Of a stretch of DNA of 64,000 nt, positions 9,311-64,000 are shown piece after piece. Origin of the DNA: Oehlia diaphana (Eukaryota; Glomeromycota; Glomeromycetes; Glomerales; Glomeraceae); assembly GCA_003833135.1 (NCBI GenBank), contig QZLH01000235.1, forward strand, positions 59,477-123,476, given 5' to 3'. Each line of letters begins with the position of its first letter. Position 1 is the stretch's first letter. A program made the position numbers and the translations under genes. A model generated the notes under the pieces. It had not been told where the DNA came from and did no database searches. It saw only the letters and a program-made list of their open reading frames with translations.

Positions 9311-10000
9311 GGAACTGATCTTTTTCGTTTGCTATATCGATATCTAAAATGAACGTATATCTACATTTATTTGCTTCATATCAGTATGTTAACAGAATAA
9401 TCACTTATCACTTATTTAACAACAAGATAATGTTATGTCATATATGTGCAGTAAACTTTCCAAAGATATTACAATTATTGAACAAGGCATTTGCTAAGCG
9501 AAAGACGTAGTTGTTGTAAATCACATATTTTTTTATAATTTGTTTATATTGTATTTCTTTATTTATAGTATTTTCTTTTATTTTTATTATATTTATTTTT
9601 TTTTCATTTCAATAGATACTTCCGCCGATGCGTGAGGCAAATTGTGTCTCCCAATATGCGTACTTTATCAATGGATGGATTTCAAAATCATAATGAAAAA
9701 AAGATGAAAATCATCAAATGTAAGATTAAATAATTTATATATTTTTATTAAAAAAGTTTCCTAATTTTTAGGAATTTTACAGGAATTAGGAATTTTTTTT
9801 TGGAAAAATACATTAGAATTGTGTAAAATTCCTAAAAATTGATAGAAAAATACATGATTATGTAAAATAATTAAGATTTTTGTAATATTTTCAATTAAAT
9901 CAATAATGAATAAATATTACTACAATTTTTTATAGCCAATTATAATATTGTTGTTGTTCATTGTTTGTAATTCCAAAATTTTCTAAATAATTGACAGATT
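9310..10000. other. AT-rich gene-free DNA
   Basis: Nothing supportable on either strand except A/T runs. Confidence 0.4.
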
Positions 10001-10084
10001 TTTGTATTGCCAATTTTATTTGATTCAGTTTGTAATAAGCCATTTTAATTTAATCTTTTCATTTTCCATTATCTCTTTACTCTC

Positions 10085-10520
10085 CTGTTTAATTCTCATT
10101 TTGTCTCTCATCGCTCCTTTTCGTCTATCATCACTTCTCTTCATCTTCCCATCACTTCTTTTCGTCTCCTATCACTCCTCTTCATCTTCTCATCACTTCT
10201 TTTCATCTCCCATCAATCCTTTTCGCCCCCATCACTCCTCTTCATCTTCCCATCACTTCTTTTCGTCTCCCATCACGCCTCTTCATCTTCTTATCACTCC
10301 TTTTCGTATTCCATCACTCCTCTTCATCTTTTCATCCTCTTCATCTTTCCATCACTCCTCTTCATCTTTTCATTACTCCTCTTTATTTTTCCATCATTCC
10401 TCTTCGTCTTTCCATCACTCCTCTTCATCTTTCTATTACTCCTTTTCGTCTCCCATCACTCCTCTTCATCTACCATTATGCCATATTTCTCTTTTTTGTT
10501 TCCTATCACTTCTCACTACT
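10085..10520. repeat. pyrimidine-rich tandem repeat, ~20-21-bp unit
   Basis: About twenty degenerate units of the type CATCACTCCTCTTCATCTT, alternating with CATCACTTCTTTTCGTCTCC, make the plus strand almost pure C/T for over 400 bp. The long Ser/His/Phe-rich open frame (10002-10643) exists only because the repeat lacks stop codons; it has no plausible protein character. Confidence 0.85.
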
Positions 10521-10561
10521 CTTTTTTACTCCCTTTCATCTTCTATTACTTTCCATTACTT

Positions 10562-10830
10562 TCATAGCATCTTCTTGATCATTATAATTTACTTAACTTT
10601 TTATTTATTGCTATTGTTTCTTTTATTTGTATCAATTCATTAAAAATACGGTGATTTTTTTTTAAAAATCGTAAATATGTAATAAAATTTCATTAGATAA
10701 GATATTTTGGTTAAATATATTTGCAAAAAAATTTTTTTTTAAAATATCTTTTGCGATAAAATTTTAAGTTTAGCTGATCAAAAATTAGCTAAATTAAAAA
10801 AATCGGCCGTCAGCCGTATCGCATAGTTGT
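10562..10830 (+). repeat. dispersed repeat, copy 1
   Basis: The order of landmarks (ATTGTTTCTTTTATTTGTATC, TTCATTAAAAATAC, AAATTTCATTAGATAAGAT, ending at GTCAGCCG) is repeated at 26372-26630. Both copies end in a CGGCTGA-type word that also opens the segment at 26033, suggesting they are right-hand parts of one transposon family. Confidence 0.75.
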
Positions 10831-20344: not shown

Positions 20345-23127
20345 ATGTCCACCCTTCGATATGAATTAATTGGTGCAACAATGAGTAGAGTAACACTGTT
20401 AACAGATACTAATATTTACAATGATATACACAAACGATTTGAATTTCAAAAACAAACAGTCCTTGCTGATAAAATTCTTACAAATGATGAAAAAACTTAT
20501 GCAATAAGATGGATAACTAGAGATTATGATCGAAATAAAGTTAATTTTAATTCAGGAACAAAAAGAATTTGTGAAAATTGTAAGCAAGAATGTTTAGCCA
20601 CATTATATTGTGAATATTGTGTTCGAAATTATTTAAAAGAAGATTTTTCAAATTGGACATCTGGAAATGATGATATTGATAATTTAATACAGAAATGTCA
20701 AATGGAATCACTCATGCCGTATAATATTGTTGAATGGATCCCATATAGTAATTTAGAAAATATTAAATATTTAACAAAAGGTGGATTTTCTGAAATTTAT
20801 ACTGCAGATTGGATTGACGGAGCGTATGAAGAATGGGATTCTGAAAAAAAAAATTTAACAAGACTTGGAAATCTCAAAGTAATATTAAAAAAATTAGAAA
20901 ATGTTGAAAGTGCAAATCAAAGTTGGTTTGAAGAGGTTTGTATTATTGTATTCCATATTTTATAAAATTGTTGTAATTTTTGTATTAGAACTATCTAGTA
21001 TTTTTACAAATTATTGTCTTTTAGGCTAAATCACATTTAACTATAAGTAATAAATGGGCGGATGTTGTTCAATGTTATGGTTTAACGCAAAATCCATCAA
21101 ATGGAAATTATATGCTTGCAATAGAGGAAATGGATATAGATTTAAGAAAATATTTACAACAAAGTCATAATAAACTTACATGGAAAGATAGAATGAAAAT
21201 TGTTGATGAAATAACTCTTGCACTTTATTATATTCATGAAGAGAAAGCTATGCATAGAGATTTACATTCTGGAAATATATTATATTCTGTATTAAATAAT
21301 ACTTGGCGTATTAGTGATCTTGGATTTTGTGGACCTGCTGATAAATGTTCAACANNNNNNNNNNNNNNNNNNNNNNNNNNNNNNNNNNNNNNNNNNNNNN
21401 NNNNNNNNNNNNNNNNNNNNNNNNNNNNNNNNNNNNNNNNNNNNNNNNNNNNNNNNNNNNNNNNNNNNNNNNNNNNNNNNNNNNNNNNNNNNNNNNNNNN
21501 NNNNNNNNNNNNNNNNNNNNNNNNNNNNNNNNNNNNNNNNNNNNNNNNNNNNNNNNNNNNNNNNNNNNNNNNNNNNNNNNNNNNNNNNNNNNNNNNNNNN
21601 NNNNNNNNNNNNNNNNNNNNNNNNNNNNNNNNNNNNNNNNNNNNNNNNNNNNNNNNNNNNNNNNNNNNNNNNNNNNNNNNNNNNNNNNNNNNNNNNNNNN
21701 NNNNNNNNNNNNNNNNNNNNNNNNNNNNNNNNNNNNNNNNNNNNNNNNNNNNNNNNNNNNNNNNNNNNNNNNNNNNNNNNNNNNNNNNNNNNNNNNNNNN
21801 NNNNNNNNNNNNNNNNNNNNNNNNNNNNNNNNNNNNNNNNNNNNNNNNNNNNNNNNNNNNNNNNNNNNNNNNNNNNNNNNNNNNNNNNNNNNNNNNNNNN
21901 NNNNNNNNNNNNNNNNNNNNNNNNNNNNNNNNNNNNNNNNNNNNNNNNNNNNNNNNNNNNNNNNNNNNNNNNNNNNNNNNNNNNNNNNNNNNNNNNNNNN
22001 NNNNNNNNNNNNNNNNNNNNNNNNNNNNNNNNNNNNNNNNNNNNNNNNNNNNNNNNNNNNNNNNNNNNNNNNNNNNNNNNNNNNNNNNNNNNNNNNNNNN
22101 NNNNNNNNNNNNNNNNNNNTTAAAAGACCCGATACTGTTACACTTCGGGGTAAAATAAGAGAAATTAATTTATTTTATCAAAATATGCCGGATGAATTAT
22201 TCAAATCAGAAATAGATAATTTGGAAATGAATAAAGTAGAAGAAAATTATACGAGTAGCAGATTATCTACAAGTAAAATTCACAACTTTGAAAATCTACC
22301 TGAACCGAGAAATGCAACAGAAGGTATAAGTTTATAATATTTTATTAATGAATATATTTATTTAAAATATATTATTAATGTTATCTTTTTATTATAATAG
22401 AAGAACAAGAAGGTATAACTGTATAAATAATAATTTCTACCATTTTTAGTTAATGTAATAATTTGGTTTTAAATACTTTATTTTACTGCTAATTAGCATT
22501 TCATAGTAAATTGTATGATTTTAACATTCCTAACAATAGTAAGTATTTAATAACATTATAGCGTTGAATTATCATATAATGATGCTTAATAATTAATTTT
22601 TTTTTAGTTGACGACTTTAATAAATCAGATGAGCAGAATAGTAGCAAATCATCAAAAATAATTACTATTTTTAGAGGTAATATATTTTAATTATTGTCAA
22701 ATCGAGATCGATTTATATATTAATTCTATATCTTAATTTTTAGATAGTAATAAAAAATTATCTAAATTATTTAAAAAGTTGCAAATAAAGTCAAATAGTA
22801 AGTTAACAAATAAAGTTACTATATCAATTTAATTTATTAAACGCGACTTTTATTTAAAATTTAGATGACGAAAAAGAAAAAACTCAAAAATATGTCGATG
22901 GTAGGTGAAAATTTTACGTAATAACGAATGATTTTAATACTATTTTAATTCTATTTACTTATCTATTACAGATGATGACGAAGCATATAATAATCCAAAC
23001 TTTCATTCAGAAGAACAAGATGAACTGGAAATTCCAGATGGTAAGCTCTTAAAATAAAGTAGAAAAAAATAATTTTCTTTATAAAGCAAATAAATTAATC
23101 TATTTTTTATCTTTAGATGGATTTTAA
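20345..23127 (+). CDS. TKL-type protein kinase with zinc ribbon and micro-exon tail (contains assembly gap)
   Basis: Proposed exons: 20345-20935, 21025-gap-22323, 22401-22412, 22608-22676, 22744-22797, 22865-22900, 22972-23040 and 23117-23127. The start at 20345 (MSTLRYELIG) is chosen over the upstream ATG at 20153 because similar fungal kinases begin this way (inference). Residues 76-92 hold five cysteines (CENCKQEC and CEYC), a zinc-ribbon-like module. The kinase domain starts near residue 142 with the glycine loop TKGGFSEIYTADW. LKVILKK carries the likely ATP-anchoring lysine, the catalytic loop is MHRDLHSGN (HRD about 274-276), and the metal motif is DLG rather than DFG. The 765-bp gap removes the C-lobe. 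After it, a low-complexity tail is spread over six small exons, all with phase-1 introns, ending HSEEQDELEIPDDGF. Likely a serine/threonine signalling kinase; substrate unknown. Confidence 0.78.
21355..22119. other. assembly gap (765 N)
   Basis: Run of N inside the kinase gene. Open frames reported across it are artefacts of the unknown bases. Confidence 0.99.
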
Positions 23128-40319: not shown

Positions 40320-40327
40320 TATAAATA
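40320..40327 (+). promoter_or_regulatory. candidate TATA box
   Basis: TATAAATA lies 66 bp before the ATG at 40394. It is followed by a C/T-rich leader (CATCACTTTC, TCCCTTTTTC), as is common before fungal start codons. This is a position-based inference. Confidence 0.4.
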
Positions 40328-40393
40328 TGGTACAATTCTGTTCGTATTTCATCACTTTCAAATTTATCCCTTTTTCAAACAGTCTTTATAAAG

Positions 40394-40960
40394 ATGAATA
40401 TTTTACTTTTTATCTTCTTGTTTTTTACAACATTCTCATCATCATCAACTCTTATAAGTCGTCAAGAAGCACTCGGTGGCTTTAAGCCGTGTGTTGGAAC
40501 TTTTCCAAATGAAATTACCACATATGGTTTAACGCCGAATCCAATTATCATAGGCCAAATGGGTACTGTTCATATTGCTGGCAAAGCAACTGTACCAATT
40601 GAAAATGGGGCGTTATATAATACGACATTATTTCATGAGAATCAAGTAATTCACCAGCACGGCCATGAATTTTGCCAAATGTTTGTTATACCAAATGGTT
40701 CCACCTGTCCAATAAATGGTGATTATGATTTTACCATAAATTTCCCGACAGAATCATCAACAAATGATCCCGTAAATATTTCAGTCGAATCTGATGCAAG
40801 AATACATAGTTAGTATTTTAATTTTATTATGTTTTTTTTTTTTATAAAGTTTTATTATAAAGTATTTTAATTATTAATTTTGATTTTTTATACAGTCATA
40901 AATCCTGATGGTAACATTCTATCATGTATTGAAGGAAAAATCACGTTTCAGTATCCCTGA
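40394..40960 (+). CDS. secreted ML-domain (NPC2/PG-PI transfer-like) protein
   Basis: Two exons, 40394-40808 and 40896-40960, separated by an 87-bp GT-AG intron in phase 1, give 159 residues. The N-terminus MNILLFIFLFFTTFSSSS is a clear signal peptide. The mature part begins near a dibasic or polar stretch (ISRQEALGGF). It reads as an ML-type beta sandwich: FKPCVGTFPN, a central VHIAGKATVPIENGALYN, EFCQMF, STCPINGDYDFTINFP and a C-terminal strand LSCIEGKITFQYP that needs exon 2. Four cysteines can form two disulfides. The CP-hydrophilic-G-x-Y-x-F pattern is typical of the lipid-binding ML family (NPC2, phosphatidylglycerol/phosphatidylinositol transfer protein). Likely role: lipid binding outside the cell or in the vacuole; the ligand is unknown. 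A candidate TATA box lies 66 bp upstream. Confidence 0.87.
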
Positions 40961-43869: not shown

Positions 43870-44210
43870 TAATAATTCCATAATCGTTTATTGCTTACAA
43901 TTTGCGGCAATAAAATTCTTCCTCTTTTCTATTCCCTTTTTTATTTTAAAATATTTTTTAAAAATCTGCTAAAACAATAAAAAACGCTAAACAATAAAAT
44001 GAAGTATGAAATATTGTTATACACGTGAGTGTTTTTTTTCTCATAATATAAGTTTTTATAAATTATATTAATATTCTACATTTATTTTCAGCTAAATGAA
44101 ATAGGTCTAAGAAGGTTGTTCAGCAAACGTGTGGAACCGCTCAAATACTAATCTTTATCAAGTTACAGTAGCTTGAATATTCTTCAAAATATGAATATTT
44201 TATGTGGAAT
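43870..44210 (+). repeat. dispersed duplicated segment, copy 1
   Basis: Shares an ordered set of words with 60540-60990: AAAATTC(T/N)TC...TCTTTTCTATT, TTTTAAAATA, AACAATAAAA, AAGTATG(A/G)AATATT and GCTCAAATA(C/T)TAAT followed by TTATCAAG or TTGTCAAG. This copy lies upstream of a kinase relic, so the block may be a former promoter region of that gene family. Confidence 0.55.
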
Positions 44211-44352
44211 TACACAGTTGTTTTTCATTTTACAGTGTAGTTTTGGCAAGATTATGCTGTACATCTTATATTTCTCATCAATATGACTCTGGTGCACTAG
44301 AACAATGTGTTAAGACCACATTTTTGATTAACTTGGACGGAGCCTGTCTAAA

Positions 44353-44517
44353 TTAAGCAAAAATGCAGACAAATACCATTTAAAATATTATAAATACAAT
44401 GATTTTAATCAAATAAAAGAGATAGGTGGTGGATTAGTTGGTAAAGTGTATAAAGTAAATTGGAAACAAAATGGCAAATGTTTAGTGGATAAATTCGTTG
44501 AAGGATATCAGCCGTAG
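44353..44517 (+). pseudogene. kinase N-lobe relic
   Basis: A 54-codon open stretch reads KYYKYNDFNQIKEIGGGLVG and then KVYKVNWKQNGKCLV. This is the glycine loop and first strands of the TKL-type kinases seen elsewhere in the window (compare FHNIKKI...GKVYRANW at 53984). It stops at TAG right after DKF, where the family has the ATP-anchoring lysine. No further kinase sequence follows. Confidence 0.65.
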
Positions 44518-44783
44518 TATTGATAAAATTGACTTTTTTGATACGAAAGCCTTGTAAGCATCTAATTTACCTTTAAAGTCCAGAAATCCGGAATCCCTAG
44601 AATAAAAATAAGAAATGAAACATTAGAAACAGTTACCCAACGGATCCTATACTATGTGTCGAATGCAGACAATTCAATGACAACAATGGATTATGTATTA
44701 ACCACTCCATTAAAATTCATGTCACTTTACACAAATTCAAATCAATTTTGTTTGATATTTACATAAACACGCCACTGGTTTAA

Positions 44784-45352
44784 CTTTCTGATCTACGACA
44801 AAGAATCAACGATTCTTTATTATTCAATACTCCAAATAGTAACACATTTCCGAACGCTTTACCAATTACTCATCCATGTTATTTGTTAGTACACAATTTT
44901 ATACTTGCTGAATTAACCACTTATTCTACAACAATATTGGAAATCGCCATATCCGCGATTCCGCTTTCCATTACTCCATTCATAAAAGAACTTACCGTAA
45001 AGTCACGAATATAAGCACCCCTGAATATAAGCACCCCAGATTTTTATATTGCCCGAACACTATGATAATTTGGGCCAATACTATAATATACCAAATATAT
45101 AAATTTACCCAAATAAAGCACCCCTATAAGTAATTCGGCCACATGGACCGAACGCTCCACCGTCTTCAACAATGGGAAATCGCTCAAGGAATAATGAAAA
45201 ATAGAAATAACGTTATCACTATTATTTCAAAAGAAATCGTAAAAACACTACACATACCAACGTTGCTAGCTCTCGGCCTAACAGAGTCTTTTGCTTTACA
45301 ACCTTATGATAGGATAGACGGACGTGTACCATATTCGATGGACGTCGAGTAA
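44784..45352 (+). pseudogene. unrecognised coding relic split by inserted repeat
   Basis: An open stretch of 76 codons (44784-45014) contains LRQRINDSLLFNTPNSNTFP and LTTYSTTILEIAISAIPLSI. Around 45000-45140 the sequence changes to repeat-like words (AATATAAGCACCCC twice, TTTGGGCCAATA, AAAGCACCCC). After that, 45143-45352 reads MDRTLHRLQQWEIAQGIMKN and ends YDRIDGRVPYSMDVE. Both flanks have more balanced composition than the surroundings. I infer one former gene interrupted by a short element. The protein family is not recognised, and 45143-45352 could be a small gene on its own. Confidence 0.35.
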
Positions 45353-45916
45353 TTTTTTGCATTCGGGTACTTGGGAAACCTATAGGGATACTTTGTTGTT
45401 TAATATATGTTTATCTATATAGTTTTTTTTATGATTTTCTTTATTTACCTACAATTCACATAGACATTAATTATTATATTTTATTTCTCTCTTTCGGTAT
45501 GTTATAATTAACGATATGAGAGCAGTATTATATTATAAATTAATTAAATCAACATTTTTTTCAGACGAATATTATGATATAATATTTATGTGCAATTGCA
45601 CAAAGTTATAAAGGCGGTGTTTACTACATAGATATGTCTCTTTAAAATTATCTTGAATTAAGGATAATATAAGAAAAATGTGTGCAGTTAAATAAATCAA
45701 TAAAATATTTTTAAGCTGCTTGTAAATTATATGGTTTAATAATTATTTATTTAAATAACATATCAGATATAGTTATAAATACAGATAATTGGAAAAAGTA
45801 CAAAAGATAGAGTTTTAAAAAAAAAATAAATGAAATTTTTGTACAAAATTTTTCACGACGGGTTTTAGTATACATATTATGAATTAAAAAAGCTGAATAA
45901 TTTTTGAATATTAAAA

Positions 45917-46538
45917 TTAACCTTCATATCCTTCATATTGCGTTTCTGGTTCTGCGTCACGTTTATTAAAGTCGTCCCGTTTGTTAAAGTCGTCCCGTTT
46001 GTTAAAGTCATCTCGTTTGTTAAAGTCATCTCGTTTGTTAAAGTCGTCACGTCTATCATAGCCTGGTTCTGCGTCACGTTTGTTAAAGTCGTCACGTTTG
46101 TTAAAGTCGTCCCGTTTGTTAAAGTCGTCCCGTTTGTTAAAGTCGTCCCGTTTGTTAAAGTCGTCCCGTTTGTTAAAGTCGTCCCGTTTGTTAAAGTCGT
46201 CCCGTTTGTTAAAATCGTCCCGTTTGTTAAAGTCATCTCGTTTGTTAAAGTCGTCACGTCTATCATAGCCTGGTTCTGCGTCACGTTTGTTAAAGTCGTC
46301 CCGTCTATCATAGCCTGGTTCTGCGTCACGTTTATTATCACCTCCTCTGGGTTCTGCGTTTGCGTCACGTTGCTTCCACGCTTCTGGTTCTGCGCCTGCG
46401 ACAATGGGTGAATTAAAATATTATTAAAAGAATTTGTTTGACTAATTTGATAAAAAAAGAAAAAAAAATTTTAATAATTTATTTACTCGCTAAAACCATA
46501 GTAATGCCGAAAATCAACAGTAAGTGTTTTAATTGCAT
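45917..46538 (-). CDS. secreted KR-repeat protein, SP7/KEX2-repeat effector-like
   Basis: Exons 46487-46538 and 45917-46395, with a 91-bp GT-AG intron in phase 1, give 176 residues. Residues 1-17, MQLKHLLLIFGITMVLA, form a signal peptide. Mature residues start SAEPEAWKQRDANAEPRGGD. Then come three 15-residue blocks KRDAEPGYDRRDDFN, thirteen 6-residue units KRDDFN (nine between blocks 2 and 3, four after), and the end KRDAEPETQYEGYEG. Each unit starts with the dibasic KR (or has RR), the cleavage site of Kex2 in the Golgi; processing would release DAEPGYD- and DDFN-type peptides. Signal peptide plus hydrophilic imperfect repeats resembles the SP7 family of Rhizophagus symbiosis effectors and fungal KEX2-repeat precursors (recognised from general knowledge, not checked). 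Other frames of the array are also open but have no start signal or sense. Confidence 0.82.
45960..46330. repeat. 18-bp tandem minisatellite inside coding region
   Basis: Near-identical copies of GTTAAAGTCGTCCCGTTT, interrupted three times by a longer insert (GTCTATCATAGCCTGGTTCT...). Copies differ mainly at one or two silent positions (GTCCCG, GTCACG, ATCTCG), so selection on the protein frame KRDDFN is plausible. Arrays of this type expand and contract easily. Confidence 0.95.
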
Positions 46539-46544
46539 GATTCA

Positions 46545-47185
46545 TATAATATATTTTTTTTTTTGTGTTATGTATAACTTTTAATTTGTTGTTTGTTTAA
46601 TTTGATTTGAAGAAATTTTCATTTTCTCAAGGTGTTTATATAAGAAAATTTTTCTATAATAACAAATATTTCAAATTATTTCATGATTAACATTTTTCAT
46701 ATTTGTAAAGAAGACGTACAAGAGTATTTTTACCACGATTTTTTACATTGCGCCCATTGCGCCACAATTTGAACGAACGGTCGGTGTCACTTTGAATTAA
46801 TAATGTGGAAATAGATGATTGCTTATTTTAAAAAAAACAATCGTGTGTATAATTGTAAATATGCCACATTTTTACATAATGAATCATGTTTTAGCTGGTT
46901 TTGAATAATTGGCATCATACTATTATATTTACTTAAAATAAAACATTTGTTTTCATTTCACAGCCACATTAAGTGGAATCACATTATCATGTGATTTGCC
47001 AAACATATATAGCTTCCCCAGTAACACCAACAAATTTTCCACCCCTCATATTCATCACCGGCATCACACCCCAGCGCGTTTTCACTGTTTATATTTATCT
47101 GAGGGACGGACAGTTTTTTTTGCCTCACAAAAAATTTTTTTTCACATCCTTTAAATGTCACCGGTCACGTGGGGTGGAATTTTAG
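46545..47185. other. AT-rich DNA upstream of KR-repeat gene
   Basis: Probably includes the promoter of the minus-strand gene. No discrete element is recognisable. The overlapping short frames at 46973-47185 and 46979-47161 lack support. Confidence 0.35.
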
Positions 47186-47190
47186 TATTA

Positions 47191-47623
47191 CAGTCGGACC
47201 TCGATATACTGTACCGATACTTCCGGTTTGGGGAAAATATATCGGTAGATCGAATTATCGGTACATACCGTCATCAGTGAATCATAATGCGGGCCAAAAT
47301 CCAATTCTTGCCAGCATTATGCAAACTCCAGATAGCAAATATATTAAAATGTCACGTGATTTGGATGGAACTTTTATGTTAACTCCGGCCAAATTAATAG
47401 CGTTGGCCCGAATTAATACCAGTGTAACCTAAAGTATCGGTACATCTTACTACGTATTGATTATAAAGGGGCAAAGAAAAGTATCGGTACATGTTACATC
47501 GTGAAATTATATATAATATCGGTACAACGAGGTTTTTTTATTAATTGTGAAACGGGACATAGAAAATTTATCGGTACAGGCAATTATCGGTACATAGGAT
47601 ATCGGTACATAGAGGTCTGACTG
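47191..47623. mobile_element. pogo/Tc1-like non-autonomous element, TA target
   Basis: A 433-bp element flanked by TA on both sides (47189-47190, 47624-47625). The ends CAGTCGGACCTCGATATAC and, on the opposite strand, CAGTCAGACCTCTATGTACC form TIRs of the CAGT(C/A)..ACCTCGATATA type known from pogo/Tigger elements. ATCGGTACAT-type words recur at least six times, mostly in the right part. The interior contains GGCC motifs (GCGGGCCAAAATCC, CTCCGGCCAAATTAAT, TTGGCCCGAATTAA). No transposase. The open frame at 47169-47432 is a by-product. Confidence 0.88.
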
Positions 47624-47652: not shown

Positions 47653-48231
47653 NNNNNNNNNNNNNNNNNNNNNNNNNNNNNNNNNNNNNNNNNNNNNNNN
47701 NNNNNNNNNNNNNNNNNNNNNNNNNNNNNNNNNNNNNNNNNNNNNNNNNNNNNNNNNNNNNNNNNNNNNNNNNNNNNNNNNNNNNNNNNNNNNNNNNNNN
47801 NNNNNNNNNNNNNNNNNNNNNNNNNNNNNNNNNNNNNNNNNNNNNNNNNNNNNNNNNNNNNNNNNNNNNNNNNNNNNNNNNNNNNNNNNNNNNNNNNNNN
47901 NNNNNNNNNNNNNNNNNNNNNNNNNNNNNNNNNNNNNNNNNNNNNNNNNNNNNNNNNNNNNNNNNNNNNNNNNNNNNNNNNNNNNNNNNNNNNNNNNNNN
48001 NNNNNNNNNNNNNNNNNNNNNNNNNNNNNNNNNNNNNNNNNNNNNNNNNNNNNNNNNNNNNNNNNNNNNNNNNNNNNNNNNNNNNNNNNNNNNNNNNNNN
48101 NNNNNNNNNNNNNNNNNNNNNNNNNNNNNNNNNNNNNNNNNNNNNNNNNNNNNNNNNNNNNNNNNNNNNNNNNNNNNNNNNNNNNNNNNNNNNNNNNNNN
48201 NNNNNNNNNNNNNNNNNNNNNNNNNNNNNNN
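47653..48231. other. assembly gap (579 N)
   Basis: Run of N; all open frames spanning it are artefacts. Confidence 0.99.
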
Positions 48232-53983: not shown

Positions 53984-56518
53984 ATGTCTGATAAAAATGA
54001 AAATGAACAAATTAATTTAATTGAAGAAGCTATTTCTAGTAAACAAATAAAATATTATGAATATAAACATTTTCATAATATAAAAAAAATTGATGATGAT
54101 GCTCTTGGAAAAGTTTATCGTGCGAATTGGAAAAATTTGGAAAAATATGTTATTTTAAAATCTTTTTTTAAATTTAATAATAATGTTGTAAAAGAAATTT
54201 TACATGAGGTAATAATTTATAAATTTACTAAAATACATAATATATTAATTTATTTAAAATTACGTTTATAAAATTATTAATATACATATATATATTTAAA
54301 AATAATTTTAGCTTAAACTTCAATGTGAACTTGACTTATATGATAATGTTATTCGATTATATGGGATTACAGAAAAAGGTATAACTAATTATTTAAATTT
54401 TGTTTATAAACAGGTTAATAAAATAAAATTAATTTTTTTATCATTTTAAAAAAATTAGGAAGTCAAAACGTAAAATCAAATAAATATTTATTAGTAATGG
54501 AGTATACTGATGGTGATTCTCTTCAAAATTATTTGAAAAAAAATTTAAAAAATCTTACATGGCCTGATAAATACAGATTAGCATACCAATTGGTTTGTGC
54601 TATATCATATTTACATGATGAAGGAATTATCCATCGTGATTTGGTAATTTTACTTTATTTCATTAAATTATTTGTATTTTTTTTTTTAAATTAATAATTA
54701 TACTTATATATTTTTATTATTATTTCGAAATATATTTTAATAAGCACTCCGACAATATAATAGTACATCAAAACAATATTAAATTAGTTGATTTTGGATT
54801 ATCAAAAAGAATTAAAGAAATATGTAAACATCAGACAGACTTATTCGGTTTAGTTCCTTACACTGATCCAAAAAGGTTCACTGGTAGTAACAAATTAACG
54901 CAACCATACTTATTAAATAAGAAGAGTGATGTTTACAGTATTGGCGTACTTTTATGGGAGATATCAAGTGGTAAATTACCATTTGAAGATGAAGCGTATG
55001 ATGCTGGTTTAGTCATGCGAATTTTACAAGGTTACAGAGAAACGATTGTTCCAAACACTCCTTTCGATTATTCTAATCTTTATACTGGTAAATATTTTCA
55101 ATATTATTTGTTCGTTATTTTAATTTTAAATCTTTACTAAATTAATATACATATTAGAATGCTGGAATAGTGAACCAGATAATAGACCAACTATGGATCA
55201 AGTAGTTGTGAAATTAAAAGAAATTATTATGAAAACAAATGTAATAGTAAATTCTCAAATACAAATTGATTCAGACAATGTTGATAAATCAAATATTAAT
55301 TTATTGTATGAGAAGAATATGACATTGATTGATTTAAGTAATTTGGTTGATGAATTGGTTGAACTTATTTATAAGAAACTTAATGAAGGAAATAATAAAG
55401 AAGTAATAAAACAAAATGTTCTTTTTAATATTAGTAATCATAAATTAACTTCAAAAGATATCTATACTTGGTTATTAAATAATCAAAATAATTCAAATTC
55501 TATTACTTTACTTGGATATTTTAATTATTATGGAATTGAAACTGATATTAATGTGAAAAAAGCGTATGAATTGTTTCAAAAAGCTGCAGATTTGGATAAT
55601 AATGTAGCACAACTTTATCTTATCTATATATATATTATTGGTCAAGGTGTTGAAAAAAATTACAAATTTGCTTTTGAATTATCTAATAAATTAGCAAAAC
55701 AAGAATCTGCTTGTGGAATTAATTATTTAGGTTATTGTTATGAAAAAGGAATGGGAACTGATATTGATAAACAAAAGGCATTTGAATTGTATCAAAAGGC
55801 GGCGGATTTAGGAAATTCAAATGGGATAGGTAATTTAGGATATTGTTATGGGAGAGGAATTGGAACTGATGTTAATATGCAAATGGCGTTTAAACTCACT
55901 CAAAAAGCAGCTGATTTGGGGAATTCATATGCAATGGATAACTTAGGACAATGTTATAATAAAGGAATTGGAACTGATATTAACACACAAAAAGCATTTG
56001 AATTATTTCAAAAATCTGCAGATTTAGGAAGTTCAACTGGTATAAGTAGCTTAGGAACTTGTTATGAAAAAGGAATCGGAACTGATATTAATCTGCAAAA
56101 AGCATTTGAATTAAATAAAAAAGCAGCTGATTTAGGAAATTCACATGGAATGAATAATTTAGGACGTTGTTATAGAAAAGGAATTGGGATTGATATTAAT
56201 TTACAAAAAGCATTTGAATTTTATCAAAAATCAGCAGATTTAGGAGATTCATATGGAATGAATAATTTAGGAAATTGCTATAGAAAGGGTATTGGAACTG
56301 ATATTAATAAGCAAAAAGCATTTGAAATATATCAAAAAGCTGCGAAATTAGAAAGTGATGTAGCTCAATATAATCTTGCTTTGATGTACGAAACTGGTGA
56401 TGGGATTAAAAAAGATATTGATCAAGCAATTTATTGGTACAAAAAATCTGCTGAACGGGGACATAAAAATGCACAAAATAAATTATTCGAATTAACAAAT
56501 ACAGATGTTATGTTATAG
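53984..56518 (+). CDS. TKL-type protein kinase fused to Sel1 repeats
   Basis: Five exons, 53984-54208, 54312-54378, 54459-54643, 54745-55087 and 55158-56518, with matching phases, give 726 residues. The ATG at 53984 (MSDKNENEQI) is preferred over the upstream in-frame codon because it begins the hydrophilic leader usual in this family. The kinase domain spans about 30-300: the glycine loop is degenerate (KIDDDALGKVYRANW lacks the first glycines), the likely lysine is K59 in YVILKSF, HRD is at 156-158 (IIHRDLHSDN), and DFG at 175-177 is intact, followed by sub-domain motifs SDVYSIGVLLWEIS and CWNSEPDNRPTM. From about residue 388 to 722 come roughly nine Sel1 repeats of the form LGxCYxKGIGTDIxxQKAFE, an alpha-solenoid for protein binding. 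Likely a cytosolic signalling kinase with a scaffold arm; the odd loop may weaken ATP binding. Confidence 0.92.
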
Positions 56519-62143: not shown

Positions 62144-64000
62144 TCATTCATCTGGAAAAATACTGCCAACTATATGCCAATTTCGTTTGCAAAATATTAA
62201 GTGTTCAAAGGTGGAGGGTAATAAATTTATATGCCTAACTGTCATTACATTCCCAGCATCAGAAAACAGTCGTTCGCTGGCTGCAGAAGTTGCTGGGATG
62301 GCTAAATATTTTTTTGCTAACTCAGATAGGATGGGAAAATTTGATGCTTGGGATGCCCACCACTTGAAAGGACAAATATCTACATCAATCTCTTCAATCA
62401 TCATATATCTTTCAATTTCATCAGCTTGTCTTTCACGGCGATGACGATTTGCAAATATATTTTGAAGCAAAGTATTACTAACTTGGGGTTGTGCGCGTGA
62501 TACTTGTTGAATTGTACCTAATTCTTGCTTTTTATTATTATAAATTTCTTTCAAAAGATTTCTTGCTTGAATTTTTTGTAATTCATCTGCAAAATTTAAA
62601 GATTTGCACCTTGGATCCAATAAGGTAGCTATCATTCCTTCATCTTGAGGTACACTCCAATAATGGTTCATTGCTGTATATAAAGCCAATTTAACTTTCT
62701 TAATTAGATCCTTACAGTCTTGTGGTATATTTATTAAAATTTTACGCCGTTTTGGATGATCATCAACTTCATCATCATCATCATCAGGATCTTCAATACC
62801 AACATCATCATCAAAAACTGTAGTAAAGCTAGTGAGATCAATATCTTCAGGTTCCATTTCGTAAGTACAACAAACTCCTTTCTTAATTTCTGTAATTGCA
62901 TCATACATAAAACTTATTGTTGCATATTTACTTCCTTCAAGAAGTTCAGTTCCTGATGCAAAAGGTTCAAGCACTTCAATTAGTTGCTTGATTGCCGCCC
63001 ATTCATCTTCACTAAGATTAATTTTACTAAGTCTTTTTCCATCTTTTCGTGTTGTAGGATCTGGATCTCTAGACATAGTCACTGCCATTACATCAATATA
63101 ATCACGAATTTTTTCCAGTCGTTTCCAGGAAAGATAAGATGAATTCCAACGGGTATTTACGTCAGAAATAAGTCGGAGATAGTGATCATTTTCACTTAAA
63201 TCCTAAATTTAATAAATCAATAGAATAAAATCAATAAAATTTAAAATTAAATAAAAATAATTAATATAAAATAATAAATAAATTAGAAATGTAATAATTG
63301 ATTATTAAAGTTTTACCTCATGTTGATTTACATTTTTCATGCTTTTTTGAACTTCAACTAGCCTTTCAGTTTGTTTTGGTGCAGTAAAAAAATTAATTAA
63401 ACGTTTTGCTCTTGCAACCAACCTTTCAGCTGGAAGAAGGCCCTTTCCTACTACAAGTTGCAAGGTATGGGCAGTACATGGAAATCGTGTGATATTGTTA
63501 TTTTTTTTAAGCAATTTACCAGCTTTAACCATGTTGCTTCCATTATCTGTAGTGATAGTAAACACCTTTCCTTCCAAATTCCATTCATGAATTATTTGAT
63601 TGAGATATTCAACGATAGTATCACCAGTGTGTGGGTATTTGAGATATTTAATTGCCAAAATAGCTTCATGAAGTTCAAACTGAGCGTTTACAAATGAACA
63701 AGTTACACCTAAATAGCCAGCACGACTTCTTGAAGTCCATAGATCTAAGGTTAAAGAGCAAGAGGTAACACCTTGTTCAAATTGATGAACAATTTCTTGT
63801 TTGCAATGATTATAACCATCAACTAGTAATTCTTTAACTTTTTTGTCACTTGGTAAATCATAAGATGGATCTAATTCTTCTACAAACTCTCTAAATCCTT
63901 CATCATCATGGATACTCAATGGCTGGTTATCTTTTACAATAATTCCAACATATTTTTTATCTAATCGATTTTTTCTAACAGGATTATTAATCATATATCG
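62144..64000 (-). CDS. hAT-family transposase (5' end outside window)
   Basis: Two exons are visible: 63317 to beyond 64000, and 62144-63203, joined by a 113-bp GT-AG intron (HE/DLSEND). The frame stays open to the window edge, where the N-terminal part, usually with a BED zinc finger, must continue. The first exon holds CSLTLDLWTSRSRAGYLG (first catalytic Asp of the RNase H-like fold) and FTITTDNGSNMVKAG (second Asp). The second exon holds DVNTRWNSSYLSWKRL, an acidic insert (about 62790), and the C-terminal dimerisation region LAIPATSAASERLFSDAGN with the catalytic Glu in SERLFS. No stop or frameshift is seen in over 580 codons. It cuts and pastes its own element. The preserved frame and nearby terminus suggest a recently active copy. 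Confidence 0.92.

Follow-up and report, generated by a model that had tools for sequence, protein, structure and literature searches.

The closest described systems to the locus reported here are the KEX2-type repeat proteins (KEPs) of Rhizophagus irregularis. According to the accessible part of PMC6339444, three repeats are the fewest with which a protein counts as a KEP, and the R. irregularis KEPs are numerous, with Tyr-rich peptides and, in most cases, with STE13 signatures, which that study termed surprising. In the available text of PMC5293756, KEX2-type repeat proteins including SP7 and its relatives are described, some of which are expressed mostly in planta. A count of 357 KEPs is given for Mucoromycota in the accessible sections of PMC7329392, 0 of them with an adjacent DUF3328 gene, proteins whose repeats are all shorter than 8 aa having been excluded. 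Arbuscular mycorrhizal fungi show signs of a mating machinery, yet the available portion of PMC3834313 reports STE3 and no peptide pheromone gene, while allowing that short genes may have been missed.

Here we describe a locus in a stretch of 64,000 nucleotides of genomic DNA, analysed at its full length and hereafter called the window. The locus quite probably holds a protein-coding gene whose product is a secreted precursor of multiple peptides, of the KEX2/STE13 type and with a build like that of alpha-pheromone precursors. This reading follows from homology, from the layout of the repeat units and from a family of loci that have the same leader.

Structure of the locus

The proposed gene lies on the minus strand, and its spliced model, read from the sequence, encodes a protein of 176 aa, from an ATG at 46538 to a TAA stop at 45917, with exon 2 running from 46395 to 45917 and ending in that TAA. 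Its parts, and a downstream stretch that is discussed with the A4 relative, are as follows.

46539..46718 (-), upstream leader, 180 bp 5' of the ATG, conserved among family members
46632..46641 (-), TATA-like ATATAAACAC, ~100 bp 5' of the ATG
46487..46538 (-), exon 1, 52 nt: signal peptide MQLKHLLLIFGITMVLA and the first base of the split codon
46396..46486 (-), intron, 91 bp, GT-AG, phase 1, GTAAATAA...TCGCAG, with the donor GT at 46486 and the acceptor AG ending at 46396
46328..46395 (-), start of exon 2: pro-segment (S)AEPEAWKQRDANAEPRGGDNKR as far as the first Kex2-type site
45959..46327 (-), repeat payload: 16 [KR]RDDFN and 3 KRDAEPGYD units, an 18-bp and a 45-bp minisatellite
45917..45958 (-), C-terminal peptide DAEPETQYEGYEG and stop codon
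44922..45209 (-), counterpart of the last exon of the A4 gene model, ~0.7 kb downstream, with stops here (tblastn of P0001 against window 44001-47200)

The payload reads KRDDFN thirteen times, RRDDFN three times and KRDAEPGYD three times, with an RRDDFN after each KRDAEPGYD. Past the signal peptide the protein has 20 [KR]R sites; all units of the array are bounded by KR or RR, and X-Ala or X-Pro dipeptides precede the GYD and ETQYEGYEG segments. The signal peptide, a hydrophobic leader that is kept across the family, was assigned by eye and by homology. Retention of the intron brings a stop two codons past the signal exon. TRF places the 18-bp array at 45955-46259 and the 45-bp array at 46239-46337. 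The TATA-like sequence, a putative promoter element, is exact in 11 of 20 aligned loci and present as variants in the remaining loci. A preliminary description of this DNA had proposed a signal-peptide exon spliced through a phase-1 intron of 91 bp into the KR frame, with thirteen copies of KRDDFN and three of a second unit; its coordinates and both counts agree with the sequence, and the junction is matched by the A4 protein P0001 described below.

It had also held that the longest open reading frames over the array lie in other frames. The longest stop-to-stop frame is indeed one of 197 aa on the minus strand that is not the KR frame, whereas the plus-strand frame, at 167 aa, only ties with the KR frame, which has the same stop-to-stop length. 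Because the 18-bp unit keeps several frames open, an open frame over the array is weak evidence. A codon test compared the 16 units, among which there are 14 substitutions that fall into 6 kinds. Read in the KR frame, 11 of these (5 of the kinds) leave the amino acid unchanged, compared with 9 of the 54 single changes that could occur; the three that are not silent are one identical Lys to Arg change adjoining GYD, which leaves the dibasic site in place and perhaps goes back to a single event. The 197-aa minus-strand and 167-aa plus-strand frames were rejected as the product, with 0 of 14 substitutions silent in each and no continuation of the leader into them. An antisense frame (LKSSRL) has all 14 substitutions silent, yet stops split it into pieces of 46 aa and 68 aa. 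Since that frame passes equally well, the codon test does not set the KR frame apart and was not taken as proof on its own. Stronger evidence for a gene comes from the apparent family of loci with a common leader, intron and dibasic layout, and by homology the window locus is very probably a real gene.

Other features of the window

A second minisatellite lies at 10105-10471, with periods of 20, 21, 41, 101 and 142 bp among its TRF rows. It sits in a plus-strand open frame (9987-10643) that is rich in Ser, His, Phe and Leu and has no Pfam match at E <= 0.001. Elsewhere, 54667-56518 holds a kinase frame and, after it, a Sel1-repeat frame whose DNA has a period of 108 bp, and a hAT transposase frame (PF05699) occupies 62144-63202. 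An ML-domain-like protein at 40325-40813 scores 21.8 bits against a Pfam cut-off of 22.7, and its start resembles a signal peptide by eye. Runs of N are found at 21355-22119 (765 bases), in a frame that is kinase-like by eye, and at 47653-48231 (579 bases).

A relative in R. irregularis A4

Within the length range of 97-308 aa that the protein search covered, none of the annotated proteins found equals the window gene. The sole relative at E <= 0.001 in that protein search was P0001 of R. irregularis A4 (RhiirA4_423602), in which 42 of 44 N-terminal residues are identical across the proposed splice junction. P0001 passes from RGGDN directly to KRDAEPEAQYE, which stands at the position of the C-terminal peptide of the window protein, and has no DDFN or GYD unit. 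Its lack of the DDFN array may be a true loss or an assembly collapse, and P0001 lends no support to conservation of the window payload. The expected homologue, alike in signal peptide and KR-repeat layout, was borne out for the signal peptide and the junction, and not for the DDFN/GYD array.

The last exon of the A4 model maps to the downstream stretch at 44922..45209, which was excluded from the window gene on account of the stops inside it. This mapping suggests that the A4 locus is syntenic with the window locus, and the A4 gene model is probably mis-fused.

A leader family in the genome

When the leader DNA (window 46372-46720) was searched against the same 108.8-Mb assembly, 37 matches were returned, including the query itself; two further members used as queries gave 34 and 26 matches, mostly at the same places. 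A leader profile made from a 16-row alignment matches 36 distinct places, drawn from 85 cut-out loci of which the remainder are overlapping cut-outs of the same places. At 20 of the 36 the model is intact and contains one or more [KR]R, a count that was not made blind, as the model script preferred acceptors giving KR and an intron near 88 bp. The layout of an intact model is a signal-peptide exon, a phase-1 intron, usually [ND]AxP, and then KR. Its general form is MKFKxLLLIFAFTIxLA[ND]AAPxxxKR, often with DADAEA, followed by a short peptide. The pro-segment starts with [ND]AxP in 17 of the 20, and with SAEP in the window gene. Throughout the 16-row alignment the donor GTAAATA is invariant; the acceptor AG is invariant too, partly by selection, as the loci were chosen by it, and the differences in exon 1 length are multiples of three only.

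The 20 intact precursors range from 29 to 231 aa, and 17 of them are tiny, with 29-74 aa and one to three predicted peptides each. L040, L047 and L065, all counted as intact, end no more than seven residues past the KR. Long arrays are found in three intact members, namely the window gene, L038 and L039, the latter two with KRDAEPEAYGY units. Some leader copies are grouped, with four on contig C426, three on C93 and five on C50. The 16 places without an intact model comprise L037 with an early stop, four without a dibasic site (L051, L053, L063 and the second C426 copy), L082, which is uncertain, and ten that the script left unmodelled. Leader matches on C30, C1501, C216 and C861 lie outside the family models.

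Three of the unmodelled loci (L080, L077 and L084, on C1397 and C280) look by eye like a further leader subfamily, with an MKLKYSLLLIF-like start, and L080 and L084 have an EDKRDAEPQYxLWKR frame in exon 2.

Searched as a pattern, KRDAEP occurs at 25 sites, against 1 for the reversed control; those on C957 and C1459 (L033 and L035) had no leader match in the profile search. A profile built from 14 short members matches at least 25 annotated proteins with E <= 1.7e-5 (23 from R. irregularis, one from R. diaphanus and one from G. cerebriforme), a lower bound, the candidates scored being the 8000 that had the most words in common. In this set P0025 does not begin with the leader, P0021 and P0024 carry the leader internally, and P0009 from R. 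diaphanus (C1646_812511) is identical over 50 aa to the C426 member. On the strength of that identity, the window DNA probably comes from R. diaphanus, which NCBI now lists as Oehlia diaphana, or from a very close relative. The preliminary description had missed that the gene appears to be one of a large family with a single leader and many payloads.

The closest paralogue by leader, L037 (C351:83198-83525; 92%), has a stop after six exon 2 codons and no repeat array, and the pair that it forms with the window gene is an apparent case of birth and death within the family. The window locus could itself be a decaying copy, in which a real leader precedes a minisatellite expanded by slippage and expression or selection has been lost. 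The broken L037, the payload not common to A4 and the 16 of 36 leader places without an intact model by the criteria used are what such decay would produce. However, the leader, splice sites, dibasic sites and stop of the window gene are intact, and the sole amino-acid change among its units is Lys to Arg, although openness itself is a weak argument where the unit length is divisible by 3. We consider decay unlikely and retain the reading of the locus as a precursor gene.

Conserved leader and variable payload

Identity was compared among 21 genes, the 20 intact members together with the second C426 copy; as this copy lacks a KR, it was left out of the comparisons around the first KR (n = 20). 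Averaged over all pairs, exon 1 has an identity of 0.78, the intron one of 0.553 (0.271 when shuffled) and the 180 bp upstream of the ATG one of 0.497 (0.269 when shuffled, and 0.19 in DNA 1.0-1.2 kb upstream); exon 2 is at 0.265 and the 150 bp past it at 0.213. The pN/pS of exon 1 is 0.50 (17 copies, 52 nt each). At the protein level, the signal peptide has an identity of 0.651, the segment between it and the first KR 0.459, and what follows that KR 0.13. Comparisons between species give the same picture. For example, L048 and P0002 of R. irregularis have the first 27 residues in common, the DADAAP repeats of P0002 being absent from L048, and L042 and P0016 have a common leader and C-terminus and differ in the middle. 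Judged from these alignments, the family keeps its putative promoter, signal exon and intron, while the predicted peptide payload changes fast, in part apparently by gain and loss of repeats.

Proposed processing and role

The window precursor would enter the secretory pathway, where a kexin would cut after KR or RR, a carboxypeptidase would trim the basic residues and a dipeptidyl aminopeptidase would remove DA-EP, with the release of up to 16 DDFN, three GYD and one ETQYEGYEG. A KEX2-processed, dibasic-repeat secreted precursor had been suggested in the preliminary description, and the 16 [KR]RDDFN and 3 KRDAEPGYD units, the homologue and the many paralogues uphold it. Of the peptides that it expected to be released, the DDFN type stands as a prediction, whereas DAEPGYD would become GYD if a Ste13-type enzyme acts.

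Scripted cleavage of the 20 precursors yields 81 predicted peptides, with lengths of 3-22 aa in the family and 3-9 aa in the window gene. An X-A or X-P dipeptide starts 59 of the 81, which breaks down into 35 of 35 in L038 and L039, 20 of 26 in the 17 tiny members and 4 of 20 in the window gene, where it stands before the three GYD and ETQYEGYEG and before none of the 16 DDFN. Where the dipeptide is QP or YP, it may be part of the peptide core instead of being stripped. For the enzymes, the genome contains one match to the kexin P-domain, covering 57 of 86 positions in a frame with a stop that is perhaps an intron, and two DPPIV_N loci.

The likeliest role of the window gene would be diffusible signalling, from fungus to fungus or from fungus to root. 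The peptides might instead act at surfaces or form part of the wall, in the manner of Ustilago maydis Rep1, as KEX2 repeat proteins with structural roles do exist (PMC4617103, in its accessible part). The Rep1 peptides are, according to the same source, mostly 35-53 aa long and amphipathic, and for peptides as short as those predicted here such a role seems very improbable.

As a special case of the precursor reading, the peptides could be true alpha-factor-type mating pheromones of Glomeromycotina. STE3 matches are present in this genome, and the available text of PMC3834313, with its STE3, its lack of a pheromone gene and its proviso on short genes, would accommodate such peptides. The build is also alpha-factor-like, with a signal peptide, KR, DADAEA-type dipeptides and short peptides often containing Trp, Tyr or Pro. 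However, alpha-type peptides are sensed by STE2, not by STE3, and STE3 is the receptor matched here; the search for STE2 gave no match in this genome, the positive control likewise being without a match in any genome. Many differing payloads would, moreover, be unusual for a single mating signal. We therefore regard mating pheromones as a rather unlikely identity for these peptides, and the role in diffusible signalling is discussed further in its general form.

We tentatively propose, as an idea that falls somewhat short of probable, that this dispersed and partly tandem Rhizophagus family of putatively secreted peptides, with its constant cassette and fast-changing peptides, is an evolving vocabulary of diffusible signals. 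The constant cassette would consist of promoter, signal exon, phase-1 intron and Kex2/Ste13 pro-segment, and the payloads would span single cores (WSPLIPI, (YP)PWWQPHMKI) to minisatellite arrays (DDFN). If this is true, the vocabulary would serve hyphal self/non-self recognition or the dialogue with the root, in a fungus from which no peptide pheromone is known, and its genes, being short, spliced and repetitive, would be easily missed. A leader-based DNA search catches even tiny single-peptide genes and supplies candidate signals in the form of a definite list. The locus also illustrates how a junk-like minisatellite may be the payload of a secreted precursor.

Comparison with known systems

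The SP7-like effectors, as described in the available part of PMC11333574, are like the window gene in being secreted, in their hydrophilic KR repeats, in their several paralogues and in an intron before the first repeat, the last a likeness in position. The same source describes a conserved sequence island at the end of each SP7-like repeat. The preliminary description had invoked the SP7 type and, as one option, a repeat protein that acts whole. Such a protein would be a disordered effector of SP7-like type working in the nuclei of plant cells, in which KR pairs direct nuclear import instead of marking cleavage sites. This fits the signal peptide, the intron before the first repeat and the KR in each repeat of SP7-like proteins (PMC11333574), and KEX2 sites occur in SP7 itself (PMC5293756), as far as the accessible sections of both sources go. 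The assignment to the SP7 type nevertheless finds no support in composition, since D+Y+K+S+G make up 75-80% of SP7-like proteins (PMC11333574, same part) and 45.3% of the window protein past its signal exon (L038, 43.3%; L039, 43.9%). A simple rule found no bipartite-NLS-like pattern in the window protein, an NLS being present in several SP7-like members and not in all. Furthermore, 17 of the 20 intact members, at 29-74 aa, have no long repeat domain that could work uncut, and X-A or X-P after KR would suit processing rather than import. We judge it quite improbable that the protein acts whole, and the comparisons below take the window gene as a precursor.

Ustiloxin-type KEX2 RiPP precursors (PMC7329392, accessible sections) resemble the window gene in their KEX2 repeats and Tyr-containing cores. 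A protein-domain identity was considered and rejected, as all Pfam matches were below the curated cut-offs (for the window protein PF07271, E 0.0037; for repeat members PF02822 and PF15576, among others; for single short members PF17499 and PF00807). At E <= 0.01 there was no matching PDB chain.

The alpha-type pheromone precursors of Ascomycota have, like the family, a leader, KR, (X-A)n and a short peptide, with single or repeated cores. In contrast to them, payloads differ among the paralogues of the leader family, and DDFN and GYD fall below the length of 9-24 aa given for Ascomycota alpha pheromones in the accessible part of PMC6339444. The Pfam alpha-factor family gave no match at E <= 1 with the 14 short members, the 3 long members, which include the window protein, or the window protein alone. 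Weak matches to annotated proteins, a Wickerhamomyces alpha-factor (P0037, E 0.057) and an Acaulospora protein (P0030, E 0.84), were disregarded.

The R. irregularis KEPs, as presented in the available parts of PMC6339444 and PMC5293756, are like the window gene in their signal peptide, their near-identical units bounded by [KR]R, the X-A or X-P after many sites, their small Tyr-rich peptides and their origin in the same genus. With more than three near-identical [KR]R-separated units the window gene falls within the KEP definition. It is a putative new KEP with a partial STE13 signature; unlike the R. irregularis KEPs with STE13 signatures, it has a main unit, DDFN, without the STE13 dipeptide. 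A family defined by one leader and many payloads was not found described in the titles and abstract openings searched. As far as the literature covered goes, what lies beyond the published work is thus this leader-defined family, mostly of mini-precursors: the KEPs in the accessible part of PMC6339444 need at least three repeats, whereas in the leader family a precursor typically has one to three predicted peptides, which for the most part differ from one another.
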